From Halalkalibacter krulwichiae (GTDB taxonomy: Bacteria > Bacillota > Bacilli > Bacillales > Bacillaceae_D): 64,000 nucleotides of DNA. A program made the translations under genes and the position numbers. The DNA is taken from assembly GCF_002109385.1 (NCBI RefSeq), contig NZ_CP020814.1, forward strand, positions 1,635,501-1,699,500, in the 5' to 3' direction. The notes under the pieces were generated by a model. That model searched no databases. It was not told the origin of the DNA and was given only the letters and a program-made list of their open reading frames with translations. Positions 713-63,640 of this stretch are shown here, in pieces (the stretch's first letter is position 1; each line of letters begins with the position of its first letter).

Positions 713-1095
713 ATGACAACTTGGAATTTAAAGGGTACCCAAAAGCACGTATTAATTTGTAATGGTTCTAGCTGTATGCGTAAGGAGGGGAAGAAATAAC
801 TCTCGCAATTCGTGAAGAGATTGCAACCCTTCAATTAGATCATGAAATTCACACATCACGAACTCGTTGTAATGGGCGTTGTAAGGATGCTTGTGTCGTC
901 ATTGTATATCCAGAAGGCAAGTGGTATTCGGCAACGTCTACGGAGGTAGGACGTGACATTATAAAAAATCACGTTGACCCAAGCATTCACTTACATGACG
1001 CATTAATATATGACTTCGTAGATGATGAACTGAATGCAGTCAATGAGTCAAGCAGAATTGAAGGAATTATGAAAAAGGAAAAAACAAACGTTTAG
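713..1095 (+). pseudogene. cbiW: CbiW-like [2Fe-2S] thioredoxin-fold ferredoxin, apparent frameshift
   Basis: Small iron-sulfur protein that opens the B12 operon, as in P. megaterium. The ATG frame reads 28 codons (including C16-x4-C21) and stops at TAA 797-799. The next frame continues without a stop to TAG 1093-1095, with C53-x3-C57-x3-C61. One more G in the four-G run at 787-790 joins both parts into a normal 127-residue protein with four conserved cysteines. The family binds a [2Fe-2S] cluster; its exact role in corrin synthesis is not established and may be electron delivery (inference). The run overlaps an SD-like AAGGAGGGG. I judge a base-calling error more likely than true loss. Confidence 0.8.
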
Positions 1096-1123
1096 TTTTC
1101 TAACATGGAAGGAGGCTAGTAAG

Positions 1124-2770
1124 ATGCTTGGGAAAATACTTGTCATAGGCTTTGGTCCTGGAAGTTTTGATCATATGACAAACAGGGCACAAACGGCAAT
1201 ACAAGAAAGTGAATGCATCATTGGGTATAAAACGTACGTTGACTTGATTCAAGATTTACTGACGGATCAAGAAATTATTAGTACAGGAATGTCTGAGGAA
1301 GTCAGCCGTGCTCAAGCAGCGGTAAAACTTGCAGAACAAGGAAAAACCGTAGCTGTCATTTCAAGTGGAGATGCTGGAGTGTACGGAATGGCAGGACTAG
1401 TTTATGAGGTTTTAATCGAAAAAGGGTGGACAGAGAATACAGGAGTGAGCGTTGAGGTGATTCCAGGTGTTTCTGCAAGCAACTCCTGCGCTTCTTTACT
1501 AGGAGCACCGATCATGCATGATGCGTGTACGATTAGTTTAAGCGACCATTTGACACCTTGGTCTCTTATTGAAAAGCGAATTGATGCAGCGGCACAAGCT
1601 GACTTTGTCATTAGCTTATATAATCCGAAAAGCGGTAGAAGAACGAGACAAATCCAAGAGGCTCAGAAGATTTTACTTGAATATCGTTCACCGCAAACGC
1701 CAGTAGGCTTAGTGAAAAGTGCTTACCGAGATCGTCAACAGATTGTTATAACGGATCTTGAAAACATGCTGAATCATGATATCGGCATGCTGACAACTGT
1801 CGTAATCGGGAACTCATCTACATTTCTCTATGATAATAAAATGATAACGCCAAGAGGATATCAAAGAAAATATACGTTACATACTGAAAAACAACGATTA
1901 AGACCGCACGAGCGGTTACGTCATGAGAACGAGCCTTGGGCGTTACATCAAGGGAAAAAGGAATGGGATACTCAGAAATCAGAAACAGCCGCAACGGTAA
2001 CAACAGTTCATTCCATTAAAGCTGGCTCACTAGAACTAGCATTAGAGGCGTTAAGTAAAGTGGAAGAGAGTACTTCTACTAGCTATAAAAAAGAAAATAA
2101 AACCGTTCACCATCCCGTCGTTTCGGTGTTTGAACTAGCAGTCAGTCCAGGAATTGTTAATAAGCAATTTACACCTAAACAAATGCTCACGTTAGCTGAA
2201 GTGGTCGGAAATGAAGGGGAAATGGAGTATACCCCTCATCATCAGATACATTTGCGAATACCAACGGCAAATCCTAATGACATTACAGAAAAATTAGAAG
2301 AGGCAGGCTTTATTCTTGAACCTTTAGGAGATGTCTTTCAATTAAAAGCTTGTGATTTTTGTGAAGGGGAGAAAAAAGATTCAATCCCACATGCAGAAGA
2401 GTTGCATCAAAAATTAAGTGGCGTTCCTCTTCCGAAAGAGTTAAAGGTTGGATTTAACGGTTGTGGCATGGCTTGTTACGGTGCCGTTAATGATGATATT
2501 GGTATTATTTTTCGTAAAGGGAAATTTGATTTGTTTTTAGGGGCAAAAACCGTTGGTCGAACAGCCCATGCCGGTCAGCCTGTTGCAGAAGGAATTGAGC
2601 CTGACAAAATTGTTGAAGTTGTTGAAACCATCATTCAGGAGTACAAAGAAAAAGGTCATCCAAACGAACGCTTCTTTAAATATTTCAAACGTGTAGGGAC
2701 CATTCAAGGCTATACATACCAAGATATGACACCAAAGATTGAGATTGAACCAGCTCCGTGTGGAGACTAA
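1124..2770 (+). CDS. cbiH60: CbiH60: cobalt-factor III C17-methyltransferase fused to an Fe-S domain
   Basis: A 548-residue fusion. Residues 1 to about 240 are a SAM-dependent tetrapyrrole methylase of the CbiH/CobJ family, with the glycine-rich GFGPG start (residues 9-13) and SGDAGVYGMA (81-90); it methylates C17 and drives ring contraction. The C-terminal half resembles the sulfite/nitrite reductase ferredoxin-like fold. It carries C410-x2-C413 and C447-x3-C451, expected to hold a [4Fe-4S] cluster as in P. megaterium CbiH60. The start follows AAGGAGG (1109-1115). It acts in the cytoplasm in the cobalt-early branch and is followed after 21 bases by cbiX. Confidence 0.95.
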   Translation: MLGKILVIGFGPGSFDHMTNRAQTAIQESECIIGYKTYVDLIQDLLTDQEIISTGMSEEVSRAQAAVKLAEQGKTVAVISSGDAGVYGMAGLVYEVLIEKGWTENTGVSVEVIPGVSASNSCASLLGAPIMHDACTISLSDHLTPWSLIEKRIDAAAQADFVISLYNPKSGRRTRQIQEAQKILLEYRSPQTPVGLVKSAYRDRQQIVITDLENMLNHDIGMLTTVVIGNSSTFLYDNKMITPRGYQRKYTLHTEKQRLRPHERLRHENEPWALHQGKKEWDTQKSETAATVTTVHSIKAGSLELALEALSKVEESTSTSYKKENKTVHHPVVSVFELAVSPGIVNKQFTPKQMLTLAEVVGNEGEMEYTPHHQIHLRIPTANPNDITEKLEEAGFILEPLGDVFQLKACDFCEGEKKDSIPHAEELHQKLSGVPLPKELKVGFNGCGMACYGAVNDDIGIIFRKGKFDLFLGAKTVGRTAHAGQPVAEGIEPDKIVEVVETIIQEYKEKGHPNERFFKYFKRVGTIQGYTYQDMTPKIEIEPAPCGD

Positions 2771-2791
2771 ATAAATATGGGGGAAATGAAC

Positions 2792-3670
2792 ATGAAAGCT
2801 ATTTTACTTGTTGGACACGGTAGTAGAGATCCTGAAGGAAATGAACAAGTCAGACAAATGATTGAAGAATTAACTAGTCAACTAGATTCTACTTTACTAG
2901 TTGAAACGTGTTTTTTAGAATTCGAGAAGCCAACGATTGAACAAGGAATTCAAGCTTGTGTCGAAAAGGGAGCAGCAAGTGTTTACGTCATTCCACTTAT
3001 GCTACTCGCAGCGGGACACTCTAAAATTCATATACCTGTAGCGATTGATGAAGCGAAAAAGAAATATCCTCAAGTCAAATTTACGTATGGCAGACCATTT
3101 GGTATTCATGAAGAAGCTATTGAAATTTGTAAAAGTCGTTTAGAGGAAGTTGGGGAAAATCTAGCTGAACCAAAAGAGGACACAGCAGTACTTTTATTAG
3201 GACGCGGTGGTAGTGATCCGGATGCAAACAGTGACCTTTATAAGATTAATCGCCTCCTCTGGGAAAAAACGAATTACAAATTAGTCGAACCTGCATTTAT
3301 GGGAGTAACCGATCCACTCATTAAAGAAGGAGTAGAGCGCTGTATTAAGCTTGGAGCTAAGAAAATAGTAGTTTTGCCGTATTTTTTATTTACCGGAATT
3401 TTAATAAAGCGATTAGAAGGCTTAATGAGTGACTTTGAACGTGAATACCCAGGTGTGCAATTTAAGCTAGCAGGCTACTTCGGGTTTCATACGCGTTTAA
3501 AAACCATTATTAAAGACCGTATTGAAGAAGCGCTACAAGGTGATGTCAAAATGAATTGTGATACTTGTCAATATCGAATTGCTGCAATGGAACATATCGA
3601 TCACCATCATCATCATGACCACGATCACGCTCATCACCATCATCACGAGCATGAGGCTCAGAAACTATGA
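2792..3670 (+). CDS. cbiX: Sirohydrochlorin cobaltochelatase CbiX, long form with His-rich tail
   Basis: Inserts Co2+ into sirohydrochlorin, the defining step of the cobalt-early pathway. It has two CbiX/SirB-type repeats (LLVGHGSRDPEG at the N-terminus; LLLGRGGSDPD in the second half). A short MNCDTC motif follows, then a C-terminal tail with about 15 histidines mixed with Asp and Glu (about 3596-3654). In the long Bacillus form the cysteines hold an Fe-S centre and the His tail is thought to store or deliver metal. ATG 2792 is preferred because GGGGGA lies 7 bases before it; in-frame ATGs at 2777 and 2786 would add up to five residues. The next gene overlaps its stop. Confidence 0.95.
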   Translation: MKAILLVGHGSRDPEGNEQVRQMIEELTSQLDSTLLVETCFLEFEKPTIEQGIQACVEKGAASVYVIPLMLLAAGHSKIHIPVAIDEAKKKYPQVKFTYGRPFGIHEEAIEICKSRLEEVGENLAEPKEDTAVLLLGRGGSDPDANSDLYKINRLLWEKTNYKLVEPAFMGVTDPLIKEGVERCIKLGAKKIVVLPYFLFTGILIKRLEGLMSDFEREYPGVQFKLAGYFGFHTRLKTIIKDRIEEALQGDVKMNCDTCQYRIAAMEHIDHHHHHDHDHAHHHHHEHEAQKL

Positions 3671-4458: not shown

Positions 4459-4460
4459 AC

Positions 4461-13554: not shown

Positions 13555-15080
13555 ATGAACAGAAATTACTTACTATTAGGATTGCTTTTGATTTCTTTTA
13601 TAATGACGGCTTGTGGAGTGTCTGATGCTTCACACCATGAAGAAGAAAAAGTAACGTTGGAGGTAGCATTCCCTTGGAGTCCACCGGGGCTTGATCCTCA
13701 TCAGTCAGGGAGGAATAGTTGGGATGTCATGCGTTCAGGTGCAGGAGAGACGTTAATCAAATTAGACGAAACGTTACAACCAGCAGCTTGGCTGGCAAAA
13801 AGCTGGGAACAAGAGGATGAGAATAGTTGGATCTTTACACTCCAAGAAAATGTTTTGTTTCATAATGGCACGAAGCTTAATGCAGAAGGTGTAAAAGATT
13901 CAATTGAAAGGTCGATCGAGATTAATCCACGTGCAAATGATTTATTGTTAATTGAAACAATTGAAGTGCTAGATGAATTTGAATTGAAAATAAAAACAGT
14001 TCAAAGTAATTCAGCGCTAATCTCTCATTTAGCTGATCCTTCCTTTATTATTGTTGATACTACGACTATTGAAGACAAGGAAGCGTATCCTGCTCTTACG
14101 GGAGCATTTTCATTTAAAGAATTTATTAAAGATGAGTCGTTAACAGTAGAACGTTTTGATGACTATTGGGGGGACGTGCTTTACTATCTGAAGTAACATT
14201 TAACTTTATATCTGATGGGAATACAAGATTAATGTCTCTTCAATCAGGTGATGTAGATATCGCAATTGATATCCCAGTAGATGGAATTTCGTTAATTGAG
14301 CAACATTCACAGTTAGAAATAGTGACAGCTCCTTCATTAAGAACTCATCTTGTCCTTTTTAATATGAGTTCTACTCTCTTTGAGAAAGAAGAATACAGAA
14401 AAATGATTGACCAAGCTATTCCTCGGGCAGACATGGTCGAAACAATCATGAATGGCTATGGCACAGTAGCTAATAGTGCTTTTTCAGACGTACTGCCTTT
14501 TGGAAAGTTAGAAGATCCACATTCTATAGATTCAATTGAAATGATTATGACCCAGAACGGTTGGGAGAGAAGTGAACAAGGTATTTGGGTAAACGATGAC
14601 CAGGTTTTTGAAGCAACGATGTTAACATTCCCACAAAGACCAGAGCTTTCAGTGATGGCTGAAATCATTCAAGCGGAATTAGCACAAGAAGGAATCAAAG
14701 TAAATATTCGTCAAGTTGAGAGTATTGATGATGCACTAGCGCAAGATGATTGGGACCTCTCCATGTACAGTATGCTAACAGCTCACACGGGAGATCCACA
14801 GTATTTCTTGAATATTTTCTACCGCGAGGATAGCTCTTCAAATGTTAGCAACTATAAATCGAAATCACTCGAAAATGTGATCGATCAATTAAATAAAACA
14901 ACAGATCAAGATAAACGAATTGAATTAGCATTAGAGGCACAAACAATCGTACAAGATGATGTTCCTCAATCATTTGTTGTTCATCCTGAAACGATTTTTG
15001 GAGTGAATAAAAAAGTAGACGGGTTTTTAGCCCATCCAATTGAGTATTACTATATTCATCCAGAAATTACGATCAATTAG
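13555..15080 (+). pseudogene. nikA: NikA-like substrate-binding lipoprotein, apparent frameshift
   Basis: Solute-binding protein of a nickel/peptide-type ABC importer. A signal peptide ends in a lipobox (FIMTAC, cysteine near residue 20). SBP_bac_5 segments follow (WSPPGLDPHQSG; ENVLFHNGTKLNAEGVKDSI). The first frame stops at 14196; the second runs from about 14166 to 15080. Adding one G to the six-G run at 14168-14173 restores DYWGGRALLSEVTF and a 508-residue protein. Inside a B12-riboswitch operon it most likely binds cobalt or a cobalt chelate (inference). Nickel is the other candidate. Confidence 0.85.
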
Positions 15081-16040: not shown

Positions 16041-16859
16041 ATGTTGAAAATCTTTTCAAAACGTTTTGGTGCTGCTAACCTGATCGGGGCTTTCCTCCTG
16101 TTAGGAACTATTCTTGTGGGTCTTTTGGCGCCATGGTTATCTCCTCATGATCCATTATCCATACATGTAGCAAATAGATTGCATCCACCTACTTGGGAAT
16201 ATCCGTTTGGAACGGATCATTTAGGCCGCTGTATTTTATCAAGGATGATGTATGGCATACGAACAACTGTTACGACAGCTTTTCTCATTATGACATTCAC
16301 TATGATGATTAGTATTCCACTTGGACTCGTAACAGCCTATAATCGAGGTCGTTCCGATCATTTTATTATGCGTTTAGTAGATGGCACTCTTGCATTACCG
16401 GACATTATCATAACAATCGCGATTGTTGGTATATTAGGGCCTGGTTATTTACATATGATTATGGCGATTGTGGTCGTACGTTGGGCAAGCTATGTTCGTT
16501 TTATTCGCAGTCTTGTTATAAAAACAACAAAGGAGGATTTTATTTTAACGGCTCGCATCTCAGGGAATTCACATTATAGGATAATGAAAAATTATATTTT
16601 TCCATTTATTTCTTCGCCCATTCTTATATTTGCAGCGTTAGATATGGGGAGAATTGTCCTGTTAATTTCTGGTCTTTCCTTTTTAGGACTTGGAGCTCAG
16701 CCCCCTACACCTGAGTGGGGAGTAATGTTACATGATGCGACAGCGTATTTTCAAATTGCGCCACATGTGATGATTTTTCCAGGTCTAGCGATCATGCTTT
16801 TTGTATTAGGATGTCAACTAATTAGTGAAAGGAGGAAAACAAGTGATACATGGATCTAG
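16041..16859 (+). CDS. nikC: NikC-like ABC transporter permease
   Basis: Second permease, 272 residues. Its N-terminal helix is followed by HDPLSIHVANRLHPP and the TDHLGRCILSRMMYG motif typical of DppC/NikC, then an EAA loop near VIKTTKEDFILTARISG. ATG 16041 is favoured by GGAG at 16031-16034; an in-frame ATG at 16029 overlaps the nikB stop, and the reading frame extends upstream to 15996. nikD starts before it ends. Confidence 0.9.
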   Translation: MLKIFSKRFGAANLIGAFLLLGTILVGLLAPWLSPHDPLSIHVANRLHPPTWEYPFGTDHLGRCILSRMMYGIRTTVTTAFLIMTFTMMISIPLGLVTAYNRGRSDHFIMRLVDGTLALPDIIITIAIVGILGPGYLHMIMAIVVVRWASYVRFIRSLVIKTTKEDFILTARISGNSHYRIMKNYIFPFISSPILIFAALDMGRIVLLISGLSFLGLGAQPPTPEWGVMLHDATAYFQIAPHVMIFPGLAIMLFVLGCQLISERRKTSDTWI

Positions 16860-17612
16860 TATGAGTACAAGGGTTGACCAAGCAGCTTTATTACAAATCG
16901 AACAACTTGAATTATCATATACTGACTCTAAAAAAAAGGTCCCGATTGTTCAAAATGTGTCGTTTGAAATACATTCAGGTGAAATTGTTGCGCTTGTTGG
17001 TCCAAGTGGTTGCGGAAAAAGCATGACTGCGCAAGCAATTGTTGGTCTACTAGATTCAGGGGTTCAGGTGACAAATGGAGCAATTATTTATAAAAAGGAT
17101 AACGTTTGTACGTATACAAATAAGCAAATGAAATTACTAAGGCGTAATGAAATTGCTTTATTTATTCAGCATTCCTTAAGCGGACTAAACCCTATTCGAA
17201 CCGTTAAAAAGCAAATGGTTGAAACACTTATGAATCAAAAAAGATGGAAGAAGAAAGAAATGGAATTTTATTTACATACTCTTTTACAGCAAGTGGGATT
17301 TTCAGATCCTAAAGCTATTCTTGGCTCTTATCCATTTGAATTAAGCGGGGGAATGCAGCAGCGAGTATTACTAGCGATGATGGTAAGTTTGAAACCGAAA
17401 CTATTAATTGCAGATGAACCGACCACTGCTCTTGATGTGATTAATCGAAATAGAGTTTTAAATTTACTAAAAAAAATCCAACAAGATCATCATTTAACCG
17501 TCTTACTCATTTCCCATGATCAACAAAGTGTCAAACATATTGCCGACCGAGTCATCCAAATGAGTGCAGGGGGATTGTTCGTGAGTCTACTTCAACTATG
17601 CAATGTGTCTAA
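16843..17612 (+). pseudogene. nikD: NikD-like ABC ATPase, apparent frameshift that fuses it to nikE
   Basis: ATPase with Walker A GPSGCGKS, signature LSGGMQQR, Walker B LLIADEPTTALD and switch LLISHD. As sequenced, the frame runs on into the next ATPase, giving an apparent 500-residue double protein. One more G in the five-G run at 17569-17573 lets it end normally at TAA 17610-17612 (256 residues), overlapping the nikE start as expected in such operons. Start GTG 16843 has AAAGGAGG (16828-16835) 7 bases upstream. The fusion is probably artefactual. Confidence 0.8.
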
Positions 17613-18360
17613 GGATTATCCTGTTAAAGGCAGAAAGAGGAGTCTATTGCGTGAGCCTGTATGTAAAGCTTTGAAACAAGTTAATTTAACAGTAGAAAAA
17701 GGCGAGTGTGTTGGTCTTGTTGGCGAGAGTGGTAGTGGTAAGAGTACGTTAGCGAAAGTCATAATGAAACTCGAACCTCTATCATCAGGTGAAATTTTTC
17801 TAGAATCACAACCTATAAGTGGCAAACAATGTCAGGATAAAGAATTTTACAAGCGAGTCCAATTAGTATTACAAGATTCCTCAGCGACGTTACATCCTAA
17901 AATGAATGTAAAAGAAAGTTTAATGGAACCGTTAAAGAATTTTTTTCCTAGAGAGAGAGAAAAATGGCTAGACATGTTAATGAAAGTAGTAGAATTAGTA
18001 GCTCTTGATGAACGTCTCCTAACAAGATATCCTTATCAATTAAGCGGTGGACAAAAACAAAGAGTTTGTATTGCAAAAGCATTAGCTGTTCAACCAAAAC
18101 TGATTATTTTTGATGAATCGATAGCTAGTTTAGACTCAGATTCACAAGCGTCCATTATTAAAATGTTTCAATTGATCCAGGAGGAAGAAGAAATATCTTT
18201 CTTATTCATTACCCATGATCTTCAGTCAACGAAACAATTTTGTAACCGGATAGCAGTGATGTATGAAGGAGAGATTGTTGAGCAATTTACTAAATGGGAT
18301 AAAGCACAGGTGAAACATCCATATACACGTTCTTTAATGGAAGCTTTTATAAAGGTTTAG
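17581..18360 (+). CDS. nikE: NikE-like ABC ATPase
   Basis: Second ATPase of the importer, 259 residues from GTG 17581. It has Walker A GESGSGKST, a Q-loop at VLQDSSATLHP, signature LSGGQKQR, Walker B LIIFDESIASLD, and LFITHD. AGGGGGAT seven bases upstream can act as ribosome site. A free GTG start overlapping the repaired nikD end is the usual NikD/NikE arrangement. Paired with NikD it powers NikBC. Confidence 0.85.
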   Translation: MSLLQLCNVSKDYPVKGRKRSLLREPVCKALKQVNLTVEKGECVGLVGESGSGKSTLAKVIMKLEPLSSGEIFLESQPISGKQCQDKEFYKRVQLVLQDSSATLHPKMNVKESLMEPLKNFFPREREKWLDMLMKVVELVALDERLLTRYPYQLSGGQKQRVCIAKALAVQPKLIIFDESIASLDSDSQASIIKMFQLIQEEEEISFLFITHDLQSTKQFCNRIAVMYEGEIVEQFTKWDKAQVKHPYTRSLMEAFIKV

Positions 18361-24843: not shown

Positions 24844-25744
24844 TTTTTCATACCCCTAACTAAATGTATTTTGCAATATGCAAGAGAAGTCCGTACACAC
24901 TGACTTAGTAGTAGCTTAACTGCTGAGAAAGTCTTAAGCAAAAACAACGACTTAATGACTTTTGGACAGCAAAAAAGCAAGTGTAAACGCATTATGCGCA
25001 CAACACTTGCTAAGATATTATCGTCAATATTAAAAAGGCAGCAACAATCCATGACAAAAATATGTATCGGATTTAGATCTATATCATAAAAAAGTAAAAA
25101 CCATTATGATTAGAGAGCTCTTTAATATATAAAATATCTTATTAGGATCAGAGTCTATATAGCAAATAATTACTTCTTAGCACTCTTATTGACCGTTTCA
25201 CAAGTTGATGTGCAAATGCACTGGTTGTAAAGTAACCAACTTATAAAATTTGAGCTTCTAACTCAATCAATAAGGCAACAAAGTTGCCAAGCGGCATTTG
25301 ACCCAGCTGTCCGTATGGCTTTGACTTACAATCGTAAGTGGTCAAAATTATCTGCTTGGAAAGACCTGATAACGAAGAGAGAGCTTTCCAATTAATGCTT
25401 CTCTAGATTATCAACTTGTAATTAAAATAGCAATAGTCATATAAAAAAAAATAAAAAAAATTGTTATGTGAAATCGATTTTATTTGCTGTTGAGGAAATA
25501 ATTGGTTAATTGCATTCACATTTGAACCATTTTTTCCTTAATCTATAAGAAGATTCATTTTTTTCATTGAAGGCCATTGGTTTTACTTAAAGAAATATGT
25601 GGTATAAGGAACTATTAGAGTTTTATGTAACAATTATACTTGTGAAAAAACTAAATTACGAAAAGAAAAATCAATGATAAAATAGATAGACTATCCGATT
25701 ATGAAGGTTGCAAGTTTGAAATGGTATTTATACAACATTGGTAG
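24844..25744. other. 900-bp intergenic region with a dense hairpin cluster
   Basis: No convincing gene. Between 25202 and 25391 there are at least six hairpins: GTGCA/TGCAC (25210-25221); AAGTTG/CAACTT (25202-25207 with 25237-25242); TTGAG/CTCAA (25250-25266); GGCAAC/GTTGCC (25274-25288); TTTGACTTAC/GTAA..GTCAAA (25320-25346); and an 8-bp TTGGAAAG/CTTTCCAA (25356-25391). The local base composition is richer in G+C than the A/T-rich 25430-25560. I cannot assign it to a known RNA family. Together with the minus-strand terminator at 24971-25011 it could be a leader or an independent RNA. Confidence 0.5.
24971..25011 (-). terminator. Terminator upstream of the carboxynorspermidine operon
   Basis: On the minus strand AGCAAGTGT pairs with ACACTTGCT, with a further inner CGCAT/ATGCG stem, then six T. 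It stands about 130 bases before the synthase start with no gene upstream in that direction. It may therefore be an attenuator or end a short untranslated RNA. Confidence 0.7.
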
Positions 25745-27681: not shown

Positions 27682-27795
27682 CTTCTTATCCAGAGTGGTA
27701 GAGGGACAGGCCCTATGAAACCCGGCAACCATCAAGTCAACATACTTGAACGGTGCTAAATCCTGCAAAGGTTGTAACCTTTGAAAGATGAGAGC
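27682..27795 (+). ncRNA. SAM-I riboswitch (S box)
   Basis: It contains the S-box core (CAGAGTGGTAGAGGGACAGG, CCCTATGAAACCCGGCAACC, and GGTGCTAAATCCTGC). P1 is closed by TCTTATC (27684-27690) with GATGAGA (27787-27793). A terminator follows directly, the usual transcription-off arrangement when SAM is plentiful. Confidence 0.95.
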
Positions 27796-32558: not shown

Positions 32559-35500
32559 ATGAATCTTATTACATTTATTGTTCGGAGAAAGATCTTAGTT
32601 GGGTTGTTGGCAGTTTTGGTGGTTTTAATCGGGGCATATGCAATGCAAAAGCTTGATAAGGAGCTTTTTCCAGCAATTGATTTTGATGGGGCTTATGTAA
32701 TGATTGATGCAGGAGATTTGCAAGCAGCTGAAGTGGAGAGAACGATAACGAGTCCATTGGAACAACAGATTTTAGCAATAGATGGCGTGGAGAGCATTCA
32801 TTCATCATCTACTATTGGGTCAAGTAACATGGATATCTTCTTTGAGCGTGGGCGCGGGGAAGAAGTTTTTAAAGAGGTAGATACGATTGTGAGCAGTTCA
32901 ACTGCCACTATATCTAGTGTTCGAGATGTCGTAACCGGTAAATACAGTACAAATCAACCGTACGACTTTTTCATGGATATTTCAGGTGGAAGCCAGGAGG
33001 ATATGACTGCTTTAGCTCAGGACATTTTAGAGCCTAGATTGGAAGCATTGAAAGAAGTATCTGATGTTTTATTAGTTGGTGTACAGGAATTTGAAATGAT
33101 GATCGAATTGAACCGTGATCAGTTATTAGATGAGGGAGTTAATGTTGCAGAGTTAATTGGCTTTATCCAACAAGAAAACAATGAGGTTACAGTAGGAACC
33201 TTAAATGGAGAACAAGATTCACCAACTCTCCGATGGAACACAAGAGTTGAGACAATTGAAGACATTGAAAATTTGAAAATCCCAACACAAGACGGATTTA
33301 TAAATTTAAGTGAAGTAGCAACAGTTTCGTTAAAACCGAAAGTAGAAACATCTGGCGTCTGGAAAGATGGCGACAGTGAATTTATTTTCGTTCAAGTCGG
33401 TAGAGTCTCGAACGTCTCTCAAATAGAGATGGCCAAAGCTGTCCGAGCGGAAGTTGCAAAGATGAAAGAAGAGGGTTTAGTCGACGGTTTTGAATTAAAC
33501 GATGTTGTCTCTCAAGCAGATTATGTTCAAGAGTCAATAGATGGGGTTTCTAACAATATTTTAATAGGTGGCATTCTTGCCGTTTTGATCTTGTTATTGT
33601 TTTTACGAAACGTTCGAGCGACACTCATTGTAGGGATTTCGATTCCAACATCGATACTCTTAACTTTTATCAGTATGTGGTTATTGGATTATAGCTTTAA
33701 CGTTTTGACATTAATTGGGCTTGGATTAGGGATAGGAATGATGGTTGACTCTGCGATCGTGATATTGGAGTCGATCTATAGAAAGAAGGAAGAGGGGTTA
33801 GAAAGCTTAGATGCAATCACAAAAGGTATAAAAGAAGTGGCCACTGCTGTGATTGCCTCTATGTTAACAACGATTGTCGTCTTTTTACCGGTTGGGCTAA
33901 TGGGGGAGAAATCGGACAGTTTATGATTATCCTTTCAGCTATTGTAGCAATTACGCTGATTAGTTCCGTCGTTGTGTCATTTACATTAATCCCGTCTCTA
34001 GCGGATAAATTTTTAAAACTGAAAAATAACAACACACGTAAGAAGGAAGGTCGAGTATCTCAAATTTATAGCAAGATCGTTTCATGGATTGTAAAGAAAA
34101 AGAGACATAGTGTAGCCATTATTATTTTGTTCCTATTCATGTTTGTCGGGTCTCTTGCTTTAGTGACAAAAATACCGATGACCATTATGCCTGATGTCTT
34201 TAACCGCTATGCAGAGATTGTCGTGAATGTAGAAACGGGTTTAACCCCTTCCGATAAGGAAAGCTTAGTCGAGGAAATTGATAAAGTTCTTTCTTCCATT
34301 AAAGACGTAGAAACGAGTTACGTCATGGATAATGGCGATATGTTTTATACGATTATTAATATGACCAAAGGCGACGAGATTACAAGGGATCAAAAGGAAG
34401 TGAATGAAGAGGTCTTTAGAGCGTTGCGTGAACTAGAGGAAACGGAGCCAATCGTCAGTGTTCAAGGAGTGATGGATGAAGGAGGAGGACATCCGGTTCA
34501 AGTCAATATTAAGGGAGAACAGTTTGATGAGTTACAGTCGTTAGCAACTGCATTTACAAGTGAGCTTGAAAACATTGACGGGATCGTTGGAATTTCACAT
34601 TCAATGGAAAGATCATCAGTAGAAGAAAGAATCGAGCTGAATGAAGACGAATTGGAAAAGGCTGGTTTAACCTCTTTTCAAGTTAGACAGTTTCTAGAAC
34701 AAGCATTTCTTCAAGTGCCAGCAGGAGAAATGACGATCGAAGAACAAACGATTCCAATCGTATTAACTTGGGAAGAAGCGACAGAAAAATCATCCGATTT
34801 GCTTAACTTGAATGTCCCAACGTTAGAAGGAGATAAGAAGCTTTCGCGCTTTATCGACTTACAGAGTGTCGATACTCCTAACAACATTAATCGAATAGAT
34901 GGGGAGCGATATATTTCGGTTACAGCTGACATTGAAGGGGTCGACCTCGGCACGATTAACAGAGACGTTCAGAACCTTATCAATGATTTTGAAGTACCAA
35001 CAAGTTATAGTATATCTGTAGCTGGGGATTTAGAGCAGCAACAAGAATTGATCGTAGAAATGCTTTTAATATTAGGATTAGCGATTTTTCTCGTTTATTT
35101 CGTAATGGCCGTTCAATTCAATCACCTCATCCAGCCGTTTATTGTGATGTCGATTATCCCAATGACGATCGTTGGAGTCATTTTAGGATTAGTTGTAACA
35201 CAGAGAGAGTTGAGTATTATGTCGGCAATGGGTGTGATCATGCTAATTGGTATCGTATTAAATAATGCGATTCTCTTAATAGACCGGACAAATCAATTGC
35301 AAAAGGCTAACTACCGCGTTGAGGATGCACTTGTAGAGGCGGGAAAAAACCGGATTCGTCCTATTTTCATGACAACACTCACGACAGCAGGAGGAATGCT
35401 GCCGTTAGCATTAGCAACGGGAACGACTGGAAACTATCAAGCTCCAATGGCTACGGTGATCATATCAGGGTTACTATTTGCTACTTTTATTACCTTGCTG

Positions 35501-35611
35501 TTAATCCCGGCGGTATATAAAGTGTTTTCTTCTAGTGAAAAGGGAATTAGAAAACTTTTGAAAAGGGATAGAAAGAAGAAAAATGCGGAAGTGAATGAAA
35601 TGGAAGTGTAA
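32559..35611 (+). pseudogene. RND-family efflux transporter (SwrC/YerP-like), apparent frameshift
   Basis: Proton-driven efflux pump of the AcrB/HAE1 superfamily. The first frame ends at 33926 in the middle of the membrane domain; the second picks up at about 33907. One extra G in the five-G run at 33902-33906 restores LMGGEIGQFMIILSAI and a 1017-residue protein with the usual 12 segments and two large periplasmic-type loops. Family landmarks are DKELFPAIDFD near the N-terminus, LGIGMMVDSAIV in TM4, and GIVLNNAILLIDRTNQL and NRIRPIFMTTLTTAGGMLPLA in the second half. In B. subtilis SwrC confers surfactin resistance. The stop is followed by a perfect stem terminator. Confidence 0.88.
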
Positions 35612-35653: not shown

Positions 35654-35687
35654 AAACAGACGTAATCAAATGAGATTACGTCTGTTT
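35654..35687. terminator. Bidirectional terminator, RND gene / IclR gene
   Basis: AAACAGACGTAATC (35654-35667) pairs perfectly with GATTACGTCTGTTT (35674-35687). The two genes are convergent and both end here. Confidence 0.9.
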
Positions 35688-37305
35688 AGTCATCATGTTC
35701 ATAGTGACCTAATATACTAGAAATTCTCTCAGCAGTCCTTGTTACTTCACCTACAAAAAGCGGATATTTGTCGTTTGTGACACGAGACATCGGTCCCACT
35801 ACACATACTGAAGCGATAACTTCATTTGTATAATCTCGAATAGGTGCTGCGATACTGACGACTCCTTCATAAAATGTCTCCTCTGCTATTACATAGCCAT
35901 CTATTTTAATTTGATCCAACCACCATTGAAGTTCTAAACGATTTGTGGTGGTTTTATTTGTATACGATTGCAGTTCTACGTTTTCGATCATTTTACGAAT
36001 GTTTTCTTCTGATTGAAAAGCTAGAAGGGCTAAGCCGGATCCGGTGCAATAAATAGGGTTCCTTTTACCGATGTCTGAAAAAAGGCGTACTGGATGATCA
36101 CATTCTATTTTGTGTAAATAAACGATACTTTTGTCTTCAATCACAGCAAGATGTGCTGATTCACCAAGCCTTGATACAAGAGCTTCTAATTTTGGCAACG
36201 TTTCTTTATATATTCCTTTTTGCTCGGTAACAATTCCTCCAAGTGTTAACAGCCCAAGTCCAAGTGTGTATTGATGATTGGGAGCTTTTTGGAGAAACCG
36301 ATAATCTAGTAAAGTTGAGATTAATCGATGTGCTGAGCTTTTGGAAATTCCGATTTGTTTCGAAATCTCCGTTACGCCTAAAGTAACTCGATTGGATGTG
36401 AATAATCGAAGAATCTTCATTGCATTTTTGACAGAGGACAAAGTTGATTTACTATCTATGTCATTGGCTAAAAATTGTTGCTGTTTGTACAATGTCCGAT
36501 TGGTAGCTTTTTTTCGTTCGGTAGCCGTGGAGAAAAGACTGTTTTGTTTTTTTACGATTTTACTAATATGATCACTCGCTTCTTTGACGTAGTCCACTAA
36601 CTGATTCAGCCTCATGTTCGTCATTCTTTCAATTGGCCCGGCAATATTAATCGAGGCAATGACTTCATGATTAGCATTGAAAATCGGTGCTCCAATTGAA
36701 ATAACTCCATTATGTAGTTCTTGGTTACTAATTACGTAACCACTCTTCTTGATGCTTTTCAATACGCTCATGAATACATCGGGATTTGTGATTGTTTTAT
36801 TTGTATATGGATACAACCCATGTTTGATCACTTGATTGATATCTTCTTCGGTTTGATAGGCAAGAATGGCTTGCCCAGAACTAGTACAGTATGATGGATT
36901 TCTTCTTCCTGAGTGTGATAACAGACGAATAGGGTGAGGACATTCCTCTTTGTGCAGGTAAACTACTTCCGTCCCATCTAAAATACAAATGTGTGAAGTT
37001 TCACCTGTGATTTTTGTTAATTTTTTCATAATCGGGATTATTTCTTGTAAGATTATCATTTTTGAAGAAAGAAGATGACTTAAAGATAAGATAGAAACGC
37101 CCGGCGAATACAATTTTGTGTACGGATCCTTATTAATAAAGCCTTCTGAAGCCAATGTATGAACGAGTCGATGGGCTGTACTTAAGGCGATCTCTAATTC
37201 GCCTGCGATTTTAACTAAAGGTAATTCAGATCGGTCCATTGAAAAAATAGTTAATAACCGTAAGGCATTTTCTAGCGAGGAATATTTTCTTTTAGTGGTA
37301 GACAT
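35686..37305 (-). CDS. Tandem IclR-IclR transcriptional regulator
   Basis: 539 residues that hold two complete IclR proteins in one frame. Winged helix 1 is at about 8-68 (PLVKIAGELEIALSTAHRLV) and effector domain 1 at about 80-255 (RRNPSYCTSSGQAILAY). A linker covers about 256-288. Winged helix 2 is at about 290-350 (LGVTEISKQIGISKSSAHRL) and effector domain 2 at about 360-530 (KRNPIYCTGSGLALLAF). The halves are clearly homologous but diverged. IclR proteins normally act as dimers or tetramers of 250-residue chains, so this is a covalent dimer. It lies divergent from the CoA ligase gene and may control it (inference). Confidence 0.88.
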   Translation of the reverse strand: MSTTKRKYSSLENALRLLTIFSMDRSELPLVKIAGELEIALSTAHRLVHTLASEGFINKDPYTKLYSPGVSILSLSHLLSSKMIILQEIIPIMKKLTKITGETSHICILDGTEVVYLHKEECPHPIRLLSHSGRRNPSYCTSSGQAILAYQTEEDINQVIKHGLYPYTNKTITNPDVFMSVLKSIKKSGYVISNQELHNGVISIGAPIFNANHEVIASINIAGPIERMTNMRLNQLVDYVKEASDHISKIVKKQNSLFSTATERKKATNRTLYKQQQFLANDIDSKSTLSSVKNAMKILRLFTSNRVTLGVTEISKQIGISKSSAHRLISTLLDYRFLQKAPNHQYTLGLGLLTLGGIVTEQKGIYKETLPKLEALVSRLGESAHLAVIEDKSIVYLHKIECDHPVRLFSDIGKRNPIYCTGSGLALLAFQSEENIRKMIENVELQSYTNKTTTNRLELQWWLDQIKIDGYVIAEETFYEGVVSIAAPIRDYTNEVIASVCVVGPMSRVTNDKYPLFVGEVTRTAERISSILGHYEHDD

Positions 37306-37458
37306 CTATTCACTCCCTCAAAAATTAAAGGTAAATGTTCCGTATAGAAGAAGTAACGACTTTTGTTCGGAATATTCTTACTATAACATAACATTAGTTG
37401 TTGAATAAGATTGTCAATTTATTACATGCCTCTCTATAGGGAGCAAGGAGGAAAATAC

Positions 37459-38732
37459 ATGACAGAAATGTTATATGGAGTGCGAGAAGGGGAAGTCAAC
37501 CTTGAACGCTATCAGCTACAAGAATTAAACCAATTACTCGTATTTGCAGCGCAGTTTAATGATTTTTATAAAGAGAAATTAGCACATGTATCATTGCCGA
37601 TTCAATCGAACGAAGACTTATTAGAGGTTCCTTTCACTCTTAAATCGGAATTATCAAAAGATCAAATCGACTTTGCTCCATATGGTAGAAATCATTCATA
37701 TCCAGAATCAAGTTATATTCGCTACCATCAAACTTCTGGTACTTCTGGGCGACCTTTAAAAATTCTTGATACGAAAGAAAGTTGGGAGTGGTGGAGTGAT
37801 TGTTGGGTGAAGGTTCTTGAATCAAGTGGGGTAACAAAAGAAGACCGGTTATACCTTGCTTTTTCATTTGGACCATTCGTCGGCTTTTGGTCAGCTTACG
37901 AAGGAGCGAAAAAAGTGGGAACGACCGTGTTTCCTGGTGGTGGCCAATCAACGATTGAGAGATTAAATAGCATTATTGAAAACAAAGCAACCGTTCTTCT
38001 CTGTACACCAAGTTATGCCTTACATCTTGCTGAAGTTGCAAGCGCTAACAATATTGATATTAAGAACGCCCATATCGAAACGATCATTACGGCCGGAGAA
38101 CCAGGGGATCCATTCCTTCCGTGCGTGAACACATTGAGCGTTTATGGAGTGCGAAACTTTATGATCATGTAGGAATGACAGAAATGGGTGCGTATGGCTA
38201 TTCTTGTTCTGAACAAAAGGGGATTCATGTAAATGAAGAGCACTTTATTTGTGAAGTGATCGACCCACAAACCTCTTTACCTGTCGCAGAAGGAGAAAGA
38301 GGTGAGCTTGTCTTAACAAATTTAAAGAGATATGGATACCCTCTGATTCGCTACCGGACGGGTGATATAGTTATTAACACGAATACGAAATGTCCGTGTG
38401 GCAATTCACACAAACACCTTCCAGGAGGAATCATCGGCCGTGCTGATGACATGGTTGTTATTCGCGGAATTAATATTTTTCCACAATCAATTGAAGCAAT
38501 CGTTCGAGAGTTTAATGAAGTGACGGAGTTTAGTATTGTTTATTATACAATTGAAGAAATGGACCAAATCAAGGTGAAGGTTGAAACAGAGAATGAGGGA
38601 ATAAAAGATGATTTGCAAAAACGGCTAAGAGATCGAGTAGGGTTAAGGGTTCAAGTAGATGTTGTTGAAAATGGATCGCTTCCTCGTTTTGAAATGAAGG
38701 CTAAAAGAGTTGTAGATGAGAGAGTAAAGTAA
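37459..38732 (+). pseudogene. PaaK-like aryl-CoA ligase, apparent frameshift
   Basis: AMP-forming ligase of the phenylacetate-CoA ligase family. Motifs are YHQTSGTSGRPLKI (ATP/AMP P-loop-like), FSFGPFVGFWSAYEG, YDHVGMTEMG and YRTGDIV, with GRADDMVVIRGINIFPQSIE in the C-terminal lid. One extra G in the four-G run at 38104-38107 joins the two frames (PGGSIPSVREHIERLW) into 424 residues. ATG 37459 follows AAGGAGG. The substrate is an aromatic acid. Because kyn genes making anthranilate are nearby, anthranilate is a candidate (inference); phenylacetate or benzoate are equally possible. Confidence 0.85.
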
Positions 38733-38769: not shown

Positions 38770-39150
38770 ATTGATGAAAAAGCATGGCATCCGCTCCGGA
38801 AATACTTCGCTTTTTAGCGGGCGGCTGGTGAGTCTCCTCGTGCTAACACAGAGGGCAATGTGGGGGTCTCACCCTTGCCTTTTGATGAAAATTAAACTTC
38901 AGACTGTAGACAAAAGGCCTTTGAGTTTGATTTCTCAAAGGCCTTTTTACGCTATTTCTTTTGATCGTTGAAGAGTAGGGAACTTCTATTTTTCCGCTCA
39001 ACACCCGCCTGCGGAAAGCGTGTCCCCCATCCCGGGAGTGAGATCGAAGCTCCTTTTCAAGTCCGAAATAAACGAGCACTTTTTCAGTGGCCTCCCTTTT
39101 GATCCCGCAGGAGACTACGCATATTTCCTCCGCTTCAATAACCCAGCCTC
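38770..39150. repeat. GC-rich dispersed-repeat-like sequence, two inverted parts
   Basis: The gap 38733-39180 has no gene. Parts 38780-38878 (GCATCCGCTCCGGAAATACT, GCGGGCGGCTGGTGAGTCTC) and 38995-39150 (minus strand: CGCTTTCCGCAGGCGGGTGT, GTAGTCTCCTGCGGGATC) are far more G+C-rich than their surroundings. They resemble each other in opposite orientation and look like the GC-rich repeats scattered between genes in many bacilli (from memory). The terminator 38912-38948 lies between them. Confidence 0.55.
38912..38948. terminator. Strong terminator in the repeat region
   Basis: AAAAGGCCTTTGAG pairs with CTCAAAGGCCTTTTT around an 8-base loop. It probably ends the CoA ligase transcript. Confidence 0.85.
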
Positions 39151-41488: not shown

Positions 41489-42129
41489 TTATAGTGGGCG
41501 AATAACCGCTCGAACTGGACTTCCATCGGCCTCTCTTAAAGGCAAAGGGAGAGCAATTAACTCATAATCGCCTTCTTCGACATCGTCTAGCATTACGTTT
41601 TCTAAAATGTGAATCTTATGTTCATATAAGGCGTGATGGCCTTCTAAATCTTTGCTATCGAGTGCATCGACAGAAGGGACGTCGACGCCGATTAATTGGA
41701 TTCCTTTTTCATGTAAGTAGATGGCACCATCCTCAGTAACATACGGAATGCTTTTTGGAAAGCGCTCTGGTCTATTCGGAATGGCTGTTTTGATCAGAAG
41801 TCTAGTAACTCCTTTTAAATCAAAATGGCTCAGGGCAGCGCGATCGATTTTCTCAAAAGATGAAAGATCAATCACTCGAGCCTCACCGATAAAGACATTC
41901 AAATCTAAATCTAGTATTTTGGCCCCGTCATTACGAAAGTGAAAGGGGCATCGACATGAGTTCCAGAATGAACACTCATAGTGATTTGCCCAATATTGAC
42001 AGAGCCCGTTTGCTCTTTTGAGTACGTCATTTGATAAGAGAAGGGTGTATCTTCTGGCCAATGAGCGAGCTTGTCATGCAAAGGTTGTGAGATATCGATC
42101 CATGATTGGTTGTTTCGTTGTTTGTTCAT
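41489..42129 (-). pseudogene. kynB: Kynurenine formamidase KynB, apparent frameshift
   Basis: Hydrolyses N-formylkynurenine to kynurenine. The first part has WIDISQPLHDKLAHWPEDTPF and the metal-binding HSGTHVDAPF; the second frame continues HFRNDGAKILDLDLNVFIG and GVDVPSVDALD. One extra C (minus strand) in the run at 41945-41948 joins them into 213 residues, including the full HxGTHxDAPxH metal motif. The start directly follows the kynU stop (TAACGATG). Confidence 0.88.
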
Positions 42130-49724: not shown

Positions 49725-50719
49725 TTAATCCTCCGTATCCCAAGTTGTTGATAGATCCCAAGCTAGTGGAGTTTCTATAATTTGTTTGACTTCTTTTATA
49801 TTTGTCGTTTTACCAAGTGCCCACATCAACTTGGCCACAATGGCCTCTTTGTTCATATCTCCAGATAAAATTACATCATACTGTGCAACCTTTCTACCTA
49901 CCTCATAAAGATATAAATCTCCTCCTTCTTCTAAACATTGAGTTGAAATGAGGACGGCGACGCCTTCATCAATTAACTCTTTTATTTTAGGTAAGAGATT
50001 TCTTTGTTCAAATGGAACACCACCATTTCCGTAACTCTCGACAATTACCCCTTTATACAACTTCTTCAAAAAATCAAAAATCTCCGGTTTTGTTCCAGGG
50101 TGTAATTTCAAAACAAATACATCAGGACATAAACTTGTATCTAACATGAGTTTCAGTTCAGTACGTTCAGGCTGCCAGTAGTAGTTTCTTTTATCATAGC
50201 GACATATGGTAAGTTAATACTTTCAAAAGCATCATAGCTTTTTGTTCTCATTTTTACAGCCCTTGTTCCCATCATGACACGCCCATCAAATACAACAAAA
50301 ACCCCGCCAATGTTTTCACTTGCAAACAGAAGTGCATCTGATAAATTCTTTTTGGCATCTGTATGTTTAAAGCTGATAGGGACTTGAGAACCTGTCACAA
50401 CAACTGGCTTTTGCAATCCTTGCAGCATATAGGACAATGCAGCGGATGTAAAACTTAGCGTATCAGTTCCATGAGTAATCACAAATCCATCATACAAATC
50501 ATAGTTTTGATAAACAGCTTCTGCAATTTGAACCCAATGTTCTGGCTGCATATTTGTACTATCTCTGTTCATGAGGATTTGATAGGTTACATCAACAGAT
50601 AAAGATTTGTCGTGAAAATAATCTAGTAGATCCTTTGCTGAGAGACCGGGAACAAGTCCCTCCTTACCTTCAATTGATGCAATCGTCCCACCAGTAGCAA
50701 GTAACAATAGTTTTTTCAT
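49725..50719 (-). pseudogene. ansA: L-asparaginase, type I-like, apparent frameshift
   Basis: Hydrolyses asparagine to aspartate and ammonia. The N-terminal frame has the catalytic threonine motifs [14 protein letters not shown] and [20 protein letters not shown], and VVVTGSQVP. It stops at about 50153; the second frame has [27 protein letters not shown] and STQCLEEG. One extra base in the A4 run (plus T4, 50189-50192) gives [20 protein letters not shown] and a 331-residue protein. It is divergent from the AnsR-like gene across a palindrome. Confidence 0.85.
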
Positions 50720-60506: not shown

Positions 60507-60740
60507 TGACTCTTACTACGTAACTATTAAATTCGTTTTTGAATGGATATCCCCCTCAAAGATTAAGGTGGAGAAGTTCGGTTTTATTTGTACAGATTTC
60601 AGCAAATTGTGCGGGTGTGGGCGACACTCAAGGTTTAACTTTTGCGCTTCTTGGTGAGCTCCGATGCCGAAACGAAAACCAATTGTAAAAGCAAGTTGAT
60701 TATTGGTTCTTTTTAGTTATGATTTTGTGGATGTTGAAGA

Positions 60741-61157
60741 TTAATCATCTATTACAGCTTTTCCTTGTTCACGTAACTTCTTTAAAGATGTAAGCATATG
60801 ATTTATTTCTTCATCCGAATGTCTTTCCCATGAGCTTAATTCAGCGATTATTTTCAAAGGCGATTTAGACCTATAAGAACGTGTTGGGTTTCCAGGAAAT
60901 TTTTTGTCAGTTAAGTTCGGATCATTTTCAAAATCATCCAATGGTTCTACAATGTAAATTCTTTCTTTTGAGATAGATGTTGCTAATTCAGCACCCCATT
61001 TTGCCGCATCTAATGTTGCAGTGAAATATATATAGTTCGATTTTTTGTTTTGGTAATTTGATAAGTGTTGCGGTTCTAATAGATCTCCAATTTTTAGTTC
61101 CGCTTTAGTACCATGATAGAAAGGACCATTATCTAAGACATCTTTTTTGTCATTCAT
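60741..61157 (-). CDS. arr: Rifampin ADP-ribosyltransferase
   Basis: 138 residues, the whole Arr enzyme. It has GPFYHGTKAELKIGDLL (NAD site), YIYFTATLDAAKWGAELA, RIYIVEPLDDFENDPNLTDKKFPGNPTRSYRS and the closing EL. Arr transfers ADP-ribose from NAD to rifamycins and inactivates them. It is chromosomal, with no mobile element in sight; such genes are common in environmental bacilli. The gene stands alone. Confidence 0.96.
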   Translation of the reverse strand: MNDKKDVLDNGPFYHGTKAELKIGDLLEPQHLSNYQNKKSNYIYFTATLDAAKWGAELATSISKERIYIVEPLDDFENDPNLTDKKFPGNPTRSYRSKSPLKIIAELSSWERHSDEEINHMLTSLKKLREQGKAVIDD

Positions 61158-61579: not shown

Positions 61580-62065
61580 TTATTCGCTATAGATAGAACG
61601 GATCTGGGATCTGATTTCACGTTCATTTGTTGTTTGAAGAGCAAGAAACTTTGGGGGGGCGGGAATGGAGAAACTTACGTGAGAATGTGACATCTCCATC
61701 AGAAGTGTACCGATTTCTACGTGCTGTCTATTTTTTATTGTAAGCCAGAATACTCTCTTTTCGTTCAACGGTGTGCCCCACTGTTCTTTTTCAAGTGAAT
61801 GGCGGAACAGTAGAAAACCGGCTATCACGAAGTCATCCTCTTTTACTTCGGCTGCTGAATGGAATCCGGCCTCCTCAACTTGCCGCCAGACGGGTACGAG
61901 CAGCTTTTCTGCATAAATACCGTAAGTGGCATCTTCATACTCCGGAAATAAGGTTTCTAACTCCTCACGGTTGTCTTCAAGGATTTTCTTCCAGTTTAAT
62001 TCAACATAGGCATTCAGTGATGTCTCAAGTTCTGATATGGTCATGTTCTGATTAAATAAAGTCAT
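61580..62065 (-). CDS. Hypothetical 161-residue protein
   Basis: I do not recognise a family. It is acidic in the first half (LEDNREELETLFPEYEDATYGIYAEK) and has an aromatic-rich centre (KRVFWLTIKNRQHVEIGTLLMEMSHSHVSFSIP). No signal peptide or membrane segment. ATG 62065 follows AAAGGGGAC. It is divergent from the double-MerR regulator and may be its target (inference). Confidence 0.6.
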   Translation of the reverse strand: MTLFNQNMTISELETSLNAYVELNWKKILEDNREELETLFPEYEDATYGIYAEKLLVPVWRQVEEAGFHSAAEVKEDDFVIAGFLLFRHSLEKEQWGTPLNEKRVFWLTIKNRQHVEIGTLLMEMSHSHVSFSIPAPPKFLALQTTNEREIRSQIRSIYSE

Positions 62066-62201
62066 TGGCTAGTCCCCTTTCTTTTTTGTTCACCCTTATC
62101 GTACAACCTTAAAGCAAATTGGAATGTTTGATATAATAAATTCAGTATTTAAAAATGATTTGCAGGAACAACTTTGCAATATAGTGAAGGTGAAAAATAA
62201 A

Positions 62202-62885
62202 ATGGATAAGCTTAGACCTGCCGACATTGCGGCGAAACTGAATGTAAGTACAAACACACTTCGTAACTATGAAGCAAAAGGACTTGTACCTTCGCCAAAA
62301 CGGACAGCAAGCGGATATCGTGTTTACTCGGACATTCATCTTGTCTATTTTTTATGCATTAAATCGCTATCCGATGGTTTTGGAATGGATGTAGCAGTGA
62401 AAGTTATGGAAAACATCGGGAATAAGAAAATCGATGAAGCACTTTGGATTCTTAACGATGAATTAATCCATAGAGGAGAGGAAAAGAAGTTCGTGATGGA
62501 AGCCGTCGAATTAATTGAATACTCCGAGAAAAAATCGTGTCTTTGGTCCCTAGGGGAAGCCGCAGAAAGAATGAATGTTTCCCGAACAGCCATCAGGTAC
62601 TGGGATAAGGAAGGGTACATACGTGCGATTCGGGATCCGGAAAGTAGCTATCGTAATTTTGATGGTCTTCAATTGGCTAAAATAAGTCTCCTTAAAGCGA
62701 TTAACCATCGGTTTTATACGGATGAAAATGCACGGATGAAGGACAGGTTTGGGGGAGCTGAGGGAAGAGCGGCATGTCGAAAACTTGCCGAGGAGGTTCT
62801 AACCCTGCTAGGGATCAGAAATAGAAGGCAATTGAAAGCGATGGCCGCTCTAGAAAAACTTTTGGAGGTAATTGAAAAAGAATAA
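62202..62885 (+). CDS. Regulator with two MerR-type DNA-binding domains
   Basis: 227 residues from ATG 62202 (AAGGTG upstream; the frame is open from 62124). The first MerR winged helix is at about 4-50 (RPADIAAKLNVSTNTLRNYEAKGLVPSPKRTASGYRVYS). The second is at about 113-165 (WSLGEAAERMNVSRTAIRYWDKEGYIRAIRDPESSYRNF). A short helical tail ends the chain. There is no ligand domain. Two different DNA-binding heads in one chain are unusual for MerR proteins. Confidence 0.85.
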   Translation: MDKLRPADIAAKLNVSTNTLRNYEAKGLVPSPKRTASGYRVYSDIHLVYFLCIKSLSDGFGMDVAVKVMENIGNKKIDEALWILNDELIHRGEEKKFVMEAVELIEYSEKKSCLWSLGEAAERMNVSRTAIRYWDKEGYIRAIRDPESSYRNFDGLQLAKISLLKAINHRFYTDENARMKDRFGGAEGRAACRKLAEEVLTLLGIRNRRQLKAMAALEKLLEVIEKE

Positions 62886-63108
62886 TTCAAATTCATAAAG
62901 AATGTGGAGACAATGTAACATGGAGTTTGGAAAGAGTAAAAAACATCACTTAACGGTTGCTTTAGTGAAAGAATATCTTTTATTTTGGGAGTATTTATTG
63001 TAAAGTGAAAATTGAACTGGAAAATTGTAGCTAGGGTTCCGCTATCTAGATAGGTCAGTGACCAAGGGCTACATCTTTTACAATATGTAAAAGGCACCTA
63101 TTGACATA

Positions 63109-63178
63109 AAAGGTCCGAGGGGAAAGGTTCAGCGTATTTGTTATGCGTTGAAATCTTTCCCCTCGGGCCTTTTTTTAT
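63109..63178 (+). terminator. Long hairpin terminator upstream of the NUDIX gene
   Basis: GGTCCGAGGGGAAAG pairs with CTTTCCCCTCGGGCC, with a further inner paired part (TTCAGCG/CGTTGAA), then seven T. It lies 22 bases before the NUDIX start and 223 bases after the MerR gene, so it may be an attenuator for the NUDIX gene. Confidence 0.8.
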
Positions 63179-63200
63179 TACTTTAAGGGAGGATTACTGT

Positions 63201-63640
63201 ATGAAAAAAATTGATGAGTTAAAAGCTGGGGTTGCAGTTGTTATTTTGAATGAGAAAAAACAAGTATTATTACAGAAAAGGTCAGATGTAGGACTTTGGG
63301 GTATTCCGTCAGGGCACATAGAAATAGGAGAAACAGTATCCGAAGCAGCTATCAGGGAAGTTAAAGAAGAAACTAATTTAGATATAAGAATTAAAAAGCT
63401 TATTGGTGTGTACTCTGATCCTGACTCACAGGTATTTGCCTATCCAAATGGTAAGGTAGTACATTTTATTACAACTTGTTTTCTTGCTGAAATTATGGGG
63501 GTGAACTACGATGTAATTCTTCTGAGTCGCTAGAAATTAAGTTCTTTAAACAACAAAATCTACCGCGAGATTTATTGAAAATGCATCCACGATGGTTAAA
63601 GGATGCACTTGCTAATAAAGAATTGGCGTTTATTCGTTAG
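63201..63640 (+). pseudogene. NUDIX hydrolase, apparent frameshift
   Basis: Nucleoside-diphosphate-linked hydrolase with a full NUDIX box (GHIEIGETVSEAAIREVKEETNL, matching Gx5Ex7REUxEExGU). The frame stops at 63533. One extra G in the five-G run at 63497-63501 continues it as EIMGGELRCNSSESLEIKFF to TAG 63638-63640, giving 146 residues. ATG 63201 follows AAGGGAGGA. The substrate is unknown. Confidence 0.83.

Follow-up and report, generated by a model that had tools for sequence, protein, structure and literature searches.

Frame breaks at short G/C homopolymers in a Halalkalibacter krulwichiae chromosome very probably reflect consensus errors of the assembly

The 64,000-nucleotide stretch of Halalkalibacter krulwichiae DNA analyzed here (the window; contig NZ_CP020814.1, positions 1,635,501 to 1,699,500 of the forward strand) is part of the single 4.61-Mb chromosome of an alkaliphilic-type Bacillaceae bacterium with a GC content of approximately 39%. 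The nearest named relatives of the window are Halalkalibacter akibai, H. alkalisediminis, and Alkalihalobacillus deserti. Eight genes of the window, which are listed below in window coordinates, are broken in frame or fused to a neighbor, and the breaks lie at or beside short homopolymers.

713..1092, + strand: small cysteine-motif protein upstream of cobJ, presumably ferredoxin-like to judge from its cysteine pattern; frame break at approximately 785-790, beside a G run
13555..15080, + strand: NikA-type substrate-binding protein in two open reading frames (ORFs); break at approximately 14168-14177, at a G run
16825..18360, + strand: NikD and NikE fused in one ORF of 511 amino acids; break at approximately 17564-17573, at a G run
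32559..35611, + strand: RND-family efflux permease in two ORFs; break at approximately 33895-33906, at a G run
37411..38732, + strand: PaaK-like acyl-CoA ligase in two ORFs; break at approximately 38103-38121, at a G run
41489..42129, - strand: cyclase-family protein in two ORFs, beside a kynureninase-type gene; break at approximately 41932-41948, at a G run of the + strand
49725..50719, - strand: asparaginase, with its N- and C-domains in separate ORFs; break at approximately 50186-50192
63138..63637, + strand: NUDIX protein (PF00293), broken near its end; break at approximately 63495-63501, at a G run

A sequence-only reading of the window had named eight homopolymers in these genes, proposed that each lacks exactly one base, and attributed the losses to under-calling in the data. 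All eight runs are present where that reading placed them, and the surrounding genes are indeed open in two frames or fused. The deposited sequence was compared with homologous proteins and with the DNA of three same-genus genomes that align over parts of the window, namely those of H. akibai (G001), H. alkalisediminis (G010), and A. deserti (G004). Only approximately 36.9 kb of the window is comparable as coding sequence, and further breaks are possible in the remainder. At six sites the comparison with intact copies in relatives, which the sequence-only reading had proposed as a check, reveals a net loss of one base at a G/C run: against every covering relative at 785-790 (three of three), 14168-14177 (three of three), 33895-33906 (four of four), and 41945-41948 (one of one), against two of three at 17564-17573, and against one of two at 63495-63501.

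The remaining two sites are less direct. The ligase site at 38104 has no DNA alignment to any relative genome compared, and the missing base is apparent there at the protein level: all eight family homologues align in two frames (1 and 3). The change of frame falls at 38103-38121 in five of them, and for the remaining three it falls between 38118 and 38163. The asparaginase site at 50189, which is the sole A/T run among the eight, does not fit the proposal. The gene has 10 bases fewer than both DNA-aligned relatives, and three homologues are offset by -10, -10, and -16; the frame thus shifts by -1, but the difference exceeds the single base proposed. Either an error next to a genuine difference in loop length or a genuine deletion may account for this break.

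When frames are rejoined by one added base, the gene lengths agree with those of intact ORFs in relatives: 127 residues against 129-160 (129, 139, and 160) for the cysteine-motif protein, 508 against 510-533 for NikA, 256 against 262-269 at the NikD-NikE site, 1017 against 1013-1024 for the permease, 424 against 435-454 in seven homologues of the ligase (the eighth has 329), 213 against 213 for the cyclase, 331 against 334-352 for the asparaginase, and 146 against 146 for the NUDIX protein. Furthermore, the pieces of the split genes together span their family models nearly end to end, as illustrated by NikA (NCBIfam NF045468, 1-185 and 186-486 of 488) and the permease (NF033617, 3-452 and 464-1008 of 1009). 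The ligase pieces similarly match NF041878 at 12-212 and 216-427 of 427, PF04199 is found in both cyclase pieces, and the asparaginase has PF00710 in one piece and PF17763 in the other. For NikA, 62 pairs of pieces from 61 sources (three genomes and 58 named loci, not all of them independent) are all offset by -1 modulo 3. The single NikD-NikE ORF matches the nikD model (41-251) and the nikE model (254-509), and among the 80 named loci examined, 72 have both genes, and in 70 of these NikD and NikE find their best matches in separate ORFs. No Pfam match at 1e-5 was obtained for the cysteine-motif protein, either with a relative's protein or with the window piece.

The association of the breaks with G/C runs is strong. 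Positions within 9 nucleotides of a G/C run of at least four bases make up 5.6% of the window, yet six of the seven breaks placed by DNA fall there (P ~2e-7). Three additional chromosome regions were compared with the same relatives: 0-200 kb (origin, of which approximately 60-65 kb aligns to relatives), 580-660 kb (r600), and 3.56-3.80 Mb (r3600), which together provide 229.9 kb of covered coding sequence outside the window. To satisfy a strict rule, a break needed two or more intact reference genomes, with every covering genome in agreement. Sites with a single covering genome were counted if they showed a one-base loss at a G/C run (41945 and three outside sites), while the others were inspected and, apart from those named separately below, were read as non-coding or start-region differences. 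The same loss recurs in all three regions, with 12 further one-base breaks at G/C runs of at least four bases as given in the assembly, seven of which satisfy the strict rule. They are listed here in region coordinates, with gene names taken from the relatives' ORFs.

origin 117959: ispF; one-base loss at a G/C run
origin 137966: rpsL; one-base loss at a G/C run
origin 154038: secY; one-base loss at a G/C run
origin 160512: ECF ATPase; one-base loss at a G/C run, in two of three covering genomes
r600 23336: aldehyde dehydrogenase; one-base loss at a G/C run, one of one covering genome
r600 32308: MFS protein; flagged against two genomes as separate entries, with a gap in the alignments to all three
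r3600 73335, 75799, and 75870: SNF transporters; three one-base losses at G/C runs
r3600 155428: FAD-binding protein; one-base loss at a G/C run
r3600 184515: lgt; one-base loss at a G/C run, one of one covering genome
r3600 23017: protein of 454 amino acids without a name; one-base loss at a G/C run, one of one covering genome

Two of these genes are particularly informative. The only match in the genome to rpsL, which encodes ribosomal protein S12, spans profile positions 4-85 of 110, and the only match to secY spans 1-291 of 306. Both genes are indispensable in Bacillus relatives, and a living cell could hardly survive their loss. Since single-copy rpsL and secY are both broken, gene decay is a very unlikely origin of these lesions.

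Application of the strict rule to the relatives places these numbers in context. This genome has 10 losses, one gain, and one other change in 231 kb, and all 10 losses lie at G/C runs of at least four bases as given. The H. alkalisediminis genome has no breaks in 235 kb. That of A. deserti has six losses, two gains, and two other changes in 224 kb; four of these are indels (-1, -1, +1, -1) in a single gene (L205 3610-4626, G004:C4), which may represent true decay or a local quality problem. The H. akibai genome, a draft sequenced on the Ion Torrent PGM (PMC3907737), has 19 losses, one gain, and one other change in 186 kb, and, as judged by eye, none of the 19 losses lies at a G/C run of at least four bases. 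The H. akibai draft thus appears error-prone itself, and gene breaks in it (for example at L179-L182 and L276-L284) are suspect too.

Shortening of G/C runs is also visible in the run lengths, in comparisons that share loci. G/C runs of 5-6 bases in the reference are one base shorter here in five of 55 comparisons against H. alkalisediminis and A. deserti and longer in none, and in one of eight against H. akibai; for reference runs of four bases, two of 230 are one shorter. In the controls, runs of 5-7 bases were never shorter by one, either in A. deserti against H. alkalisediminis (0 of 41, with one other change) or in the reverse comparison (0 of 38). An alignment-free count gave one G/C run of at least seven bases in 584 kb of this genome versus 13 in 906 kb of the H. 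alkalisediminis and A. deserti genomes (P 0.009), and for runs of at least six bases the corresponding values were 22 and 66 (P 0.004). H. akibai was omitted from this depletion test because its genome is an Ion Torrent draft. For A/T runs of at least eight bases the reduction is only mild: 584 kb of this genome holds 54, as compared with 57 in 485 kb of H. alkalisediminis and 67 in 421 kb of A. deserti.

A wider list comprises 18 DNA-placed losses at G/C runs of at least four bases, six of them in the window and 12 outside; the remainder consists of one loss at a T run, one loss beside a three-base C run, a gain in thiT, and a gain-type break in a response-regulator-like gene. The one-sided bias that the sequence-only reading emphasized is therefore strong, in that losses outnumber gains, but it is not absolute: thiT carries a +1, the response-regulator-like gene a +1-type change, and an amidase gene a -1 at a T run. 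Similarly, the proposal that no site has an extra base holds for the eight listed sites and fails elsewhere, in thiT and the response-regulator-like gene. An apparent strand bias (G over C on the sense strand at 18 of 19 sites, assigned by hand) was not significant given the background of 105:19 (P 0.19) and was set aside.

Together, these observations make it very probable that the breaks are consensus errors of the assembly and not gene decay, and homopolymer under-calling as their cause is supported by the recurrence of the same loss in three other regions, including in rpsL and secY. Three marks of under-calling at G/C homopolymers were found: losses far outnumber gains, the losses are concentrated at G/C runs, and essential genes are broken. 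Some G/C runs, mostly of at least five bases in the relatives, would have been called one base short, and such a miscall inside a gene would shift the frame and split the ORF or fuse it with its neighbor; we infer that the cause would lie in base calling or consensus calling. An early assembly from PacBio reads only is the probable source.

Several observations weigh against this interpretation. The asparaginase gap of 10 bases resembles an ordinary deletion. Outside the window, thiT has a +1 and the amidase gene a -1 at a T run, each relative to one reference. The gene at chromosome position 3,697,352 (r3600 137352), which we take to be response-regulator-like from its length and context, is split between two frames, and three homologues give offsets of +4, +4, and -8 in a comparison made at the protein level only. 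At 3,704,200 (r3600 144200), a one-base loss beside a three-base C run is gapped against all three relatives; it was left out of the break count and may reflect this error in a run of smaller length. These last two sites may represent real lesions or a second type of error. The sole gain under the strict rule, close to the beginning of an RNase H-like gene, may reflect start-site variation. In addition, the omitted H. akibai genome also has few long G/C runs (16 of at least six bases, one of them of at least seven, in 349 kb). A break as close to the C-terminus as that of secY might, taken alone, be tolerable, so that rpsL is the stronger case of the two. Relative to its coding length, the window is richer in breaks than the other regions (six in 36.9 kb versus 12 in 229.9 kb; post hoc P 0.03), although this excess is a weak objection because the window was chosen for its breaks. 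Finally, the counting rule for single-genome sites favors a reading as error, while the strict-rule counts are independent of it.

Were the breaks instead real and recent pseudogenes or gene fusions of the strain, the eight window genes would at least be of kinds that can be lost, with transport, catabolic, and accessory functions, and both the asparaginase gap and the few outside breaks that are gains or lie off G/C runs may be real lesions of this kind. As a general account, this is highly improbable. Decay would be expected to leave mixed lesions confined to dispensable genes, whereas a single lesion type dominates, all 10 strict losses lie at G/C runs, and the same type of break strikes rpsL and secY, for neither of which a second match exists in the genome. 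The split pieces also cover their family models almost fully, as in NikA, and the mixed indels of the possibly decayed A. deserti gene offer a direct contrast.

The short G runs might alternatively be real, and slippage of the ribosome or of RNA polymerase on them would then restore the frame of the broken genes, rpsL and secY included. The breaks do lie on short G runs, and if the sequence is right, breaks in presumed essential genes would be tolerable only with such a correction; the strain would then tolerate a genome-wide load of one-base frame breaks. Yet the relatives encode the same genes in one open frame, with no two-frame coding found to be shared, the broken genes have no common function, and correction would not itself cause the overall depletion of long G/C runs. 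The pattern moreover equals an assembly error described in PMC7694296, and slippage is therefore regarded as the least credible explanation, with almost no weight. A closer competitor retains the same kind of error but assigns it to nanopore sequencing or to a flow-based method (454 or Ion Torrent). The Ion Torrent draft of H. akibai is similarly rich in losses, and in the Kastor report (PMC12007338) nanopore deletions mostly follow runs of four to five bases. However, the H. akibai losses avoid G/C runs of at least four bases (by eye), A/T runs dominate the Kastor nanopore example while the 10 strict losses here all lie at G/C runs, and 454 is reported to show insertions, the opposite sign (PMC4849082). 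Another platform is thus possible but rather unlikely, and early PacBio data remain the preferred source of the errors.

Other indels were left uncounted. In the window, 12956 and 13533 appear against H. akibai only, with three genomes covering; 57396 also appears against H. akibai only, and A. deserti is gapless there; 56373, 57156, and 57276 appear against A. deserti only. On inspection, origin 120349, 124275, 127787, 161740, 168280, 170035, and 171574 were gene-boundary, start-region, or non-coding differences, and the same reading was given to r600 51033 and 68288 and to r3600 47419, 89688, 107644, and 144312. A site at 150343 was seen against H. akibai only. One relative supports origin 114810, 143591, and 144893, r600 28654 and 33470, and r3600 71854, while others cover them. 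In the protein-level test, 11 of 29 clusters fall outside the counted or named sites; 10 of them are single-source, and the eleventh is r3600 137352. A candidate ninth break in a double-IclR ORF (35686-37305, - strand) was dropped because the relatives carry both fused and separate forms, the fused ORFs having 530 amino acids in A. deserti, 521 in a further genome (G009), and 553 and 620 in H. alkalisediminis. Natural fusion or fission of this tandem is possibly ongoing.

Several other features were observed.

80-267 and 376-557, + strand: tandem cobalamin riboswitches ahead of the cobalamin gene cluster
25291-25344, - strand: Rfam match to SpF59 that exceeds the gathering score, here in a Bacillaceae genome although the family takes its name from a Streptococcus small RNA
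27683-27794, + strand: SAM riboswitch
38774-39134: dispersed repeat in pieces of approximately 30-140 bases, with many recurrences in this genome and in H. akibai
60741-61157, - strand: ORF matching rifampin ADP-ribosyltransferase over the full model (PF12120, 1-99 of 99)
chromosome 3,613,636-3,613,766: repeat of approximately 130 bases, with dozens of copies in relatives

The breaks hold no new biology, and their value is as a warning about the assembly. Gene losses, fusions, or pathway gaps read from it would mislead, for example in nickel uptake, efflux, and kynurenine-type and acyl-CoA steps. As a rough estimate from the rate outside the window, assuming approximately 85% coding sequence, some 200 such breaks are possible genome-wide. 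The completeness score of the genome is 99.99% despite the breaks, and hence does not reveal the problem.

Comparable errors have been described in other assemblies. The PacBio RS II assembly of Thermus thermophilus NAR1 contained 2927 deletions and one insertion, essentially in G/C runs of 5-6 bases, and its gyrA/gyrB were apparently truncated (PMC7694296); in actinobacteria, a G or C tends to be dropped from the consensus of PacBio assemblies (PMC4849082). The breaks described here resemble these cases in the loss of one base with few gains, in the G/C runs of approximately 5-6 bases, in affecting a minority of runs, and in the apparent truncation of essential genes. They differ in that those genomes are GC-rich, as opposed to approximately 39% GC here, and the density of 12 in 230 kb of covered coding sequence outside the window contrasts with approximately one per 1000 bases in NAR1. 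The long-read cases examined with Kastor (PMC12007338) likewise involve frameshifts from homopolymer deletions that were found by means of reference genes, although A/T runs dominate its nanopore example and G/C runs dominate here. The H. akibai draft (PMC3907737) shares the many one-base losses, in conserved genes, but its losses lie off G/C runs of at least four bases, as judged by eye, unlike those in H. krulwichiae.

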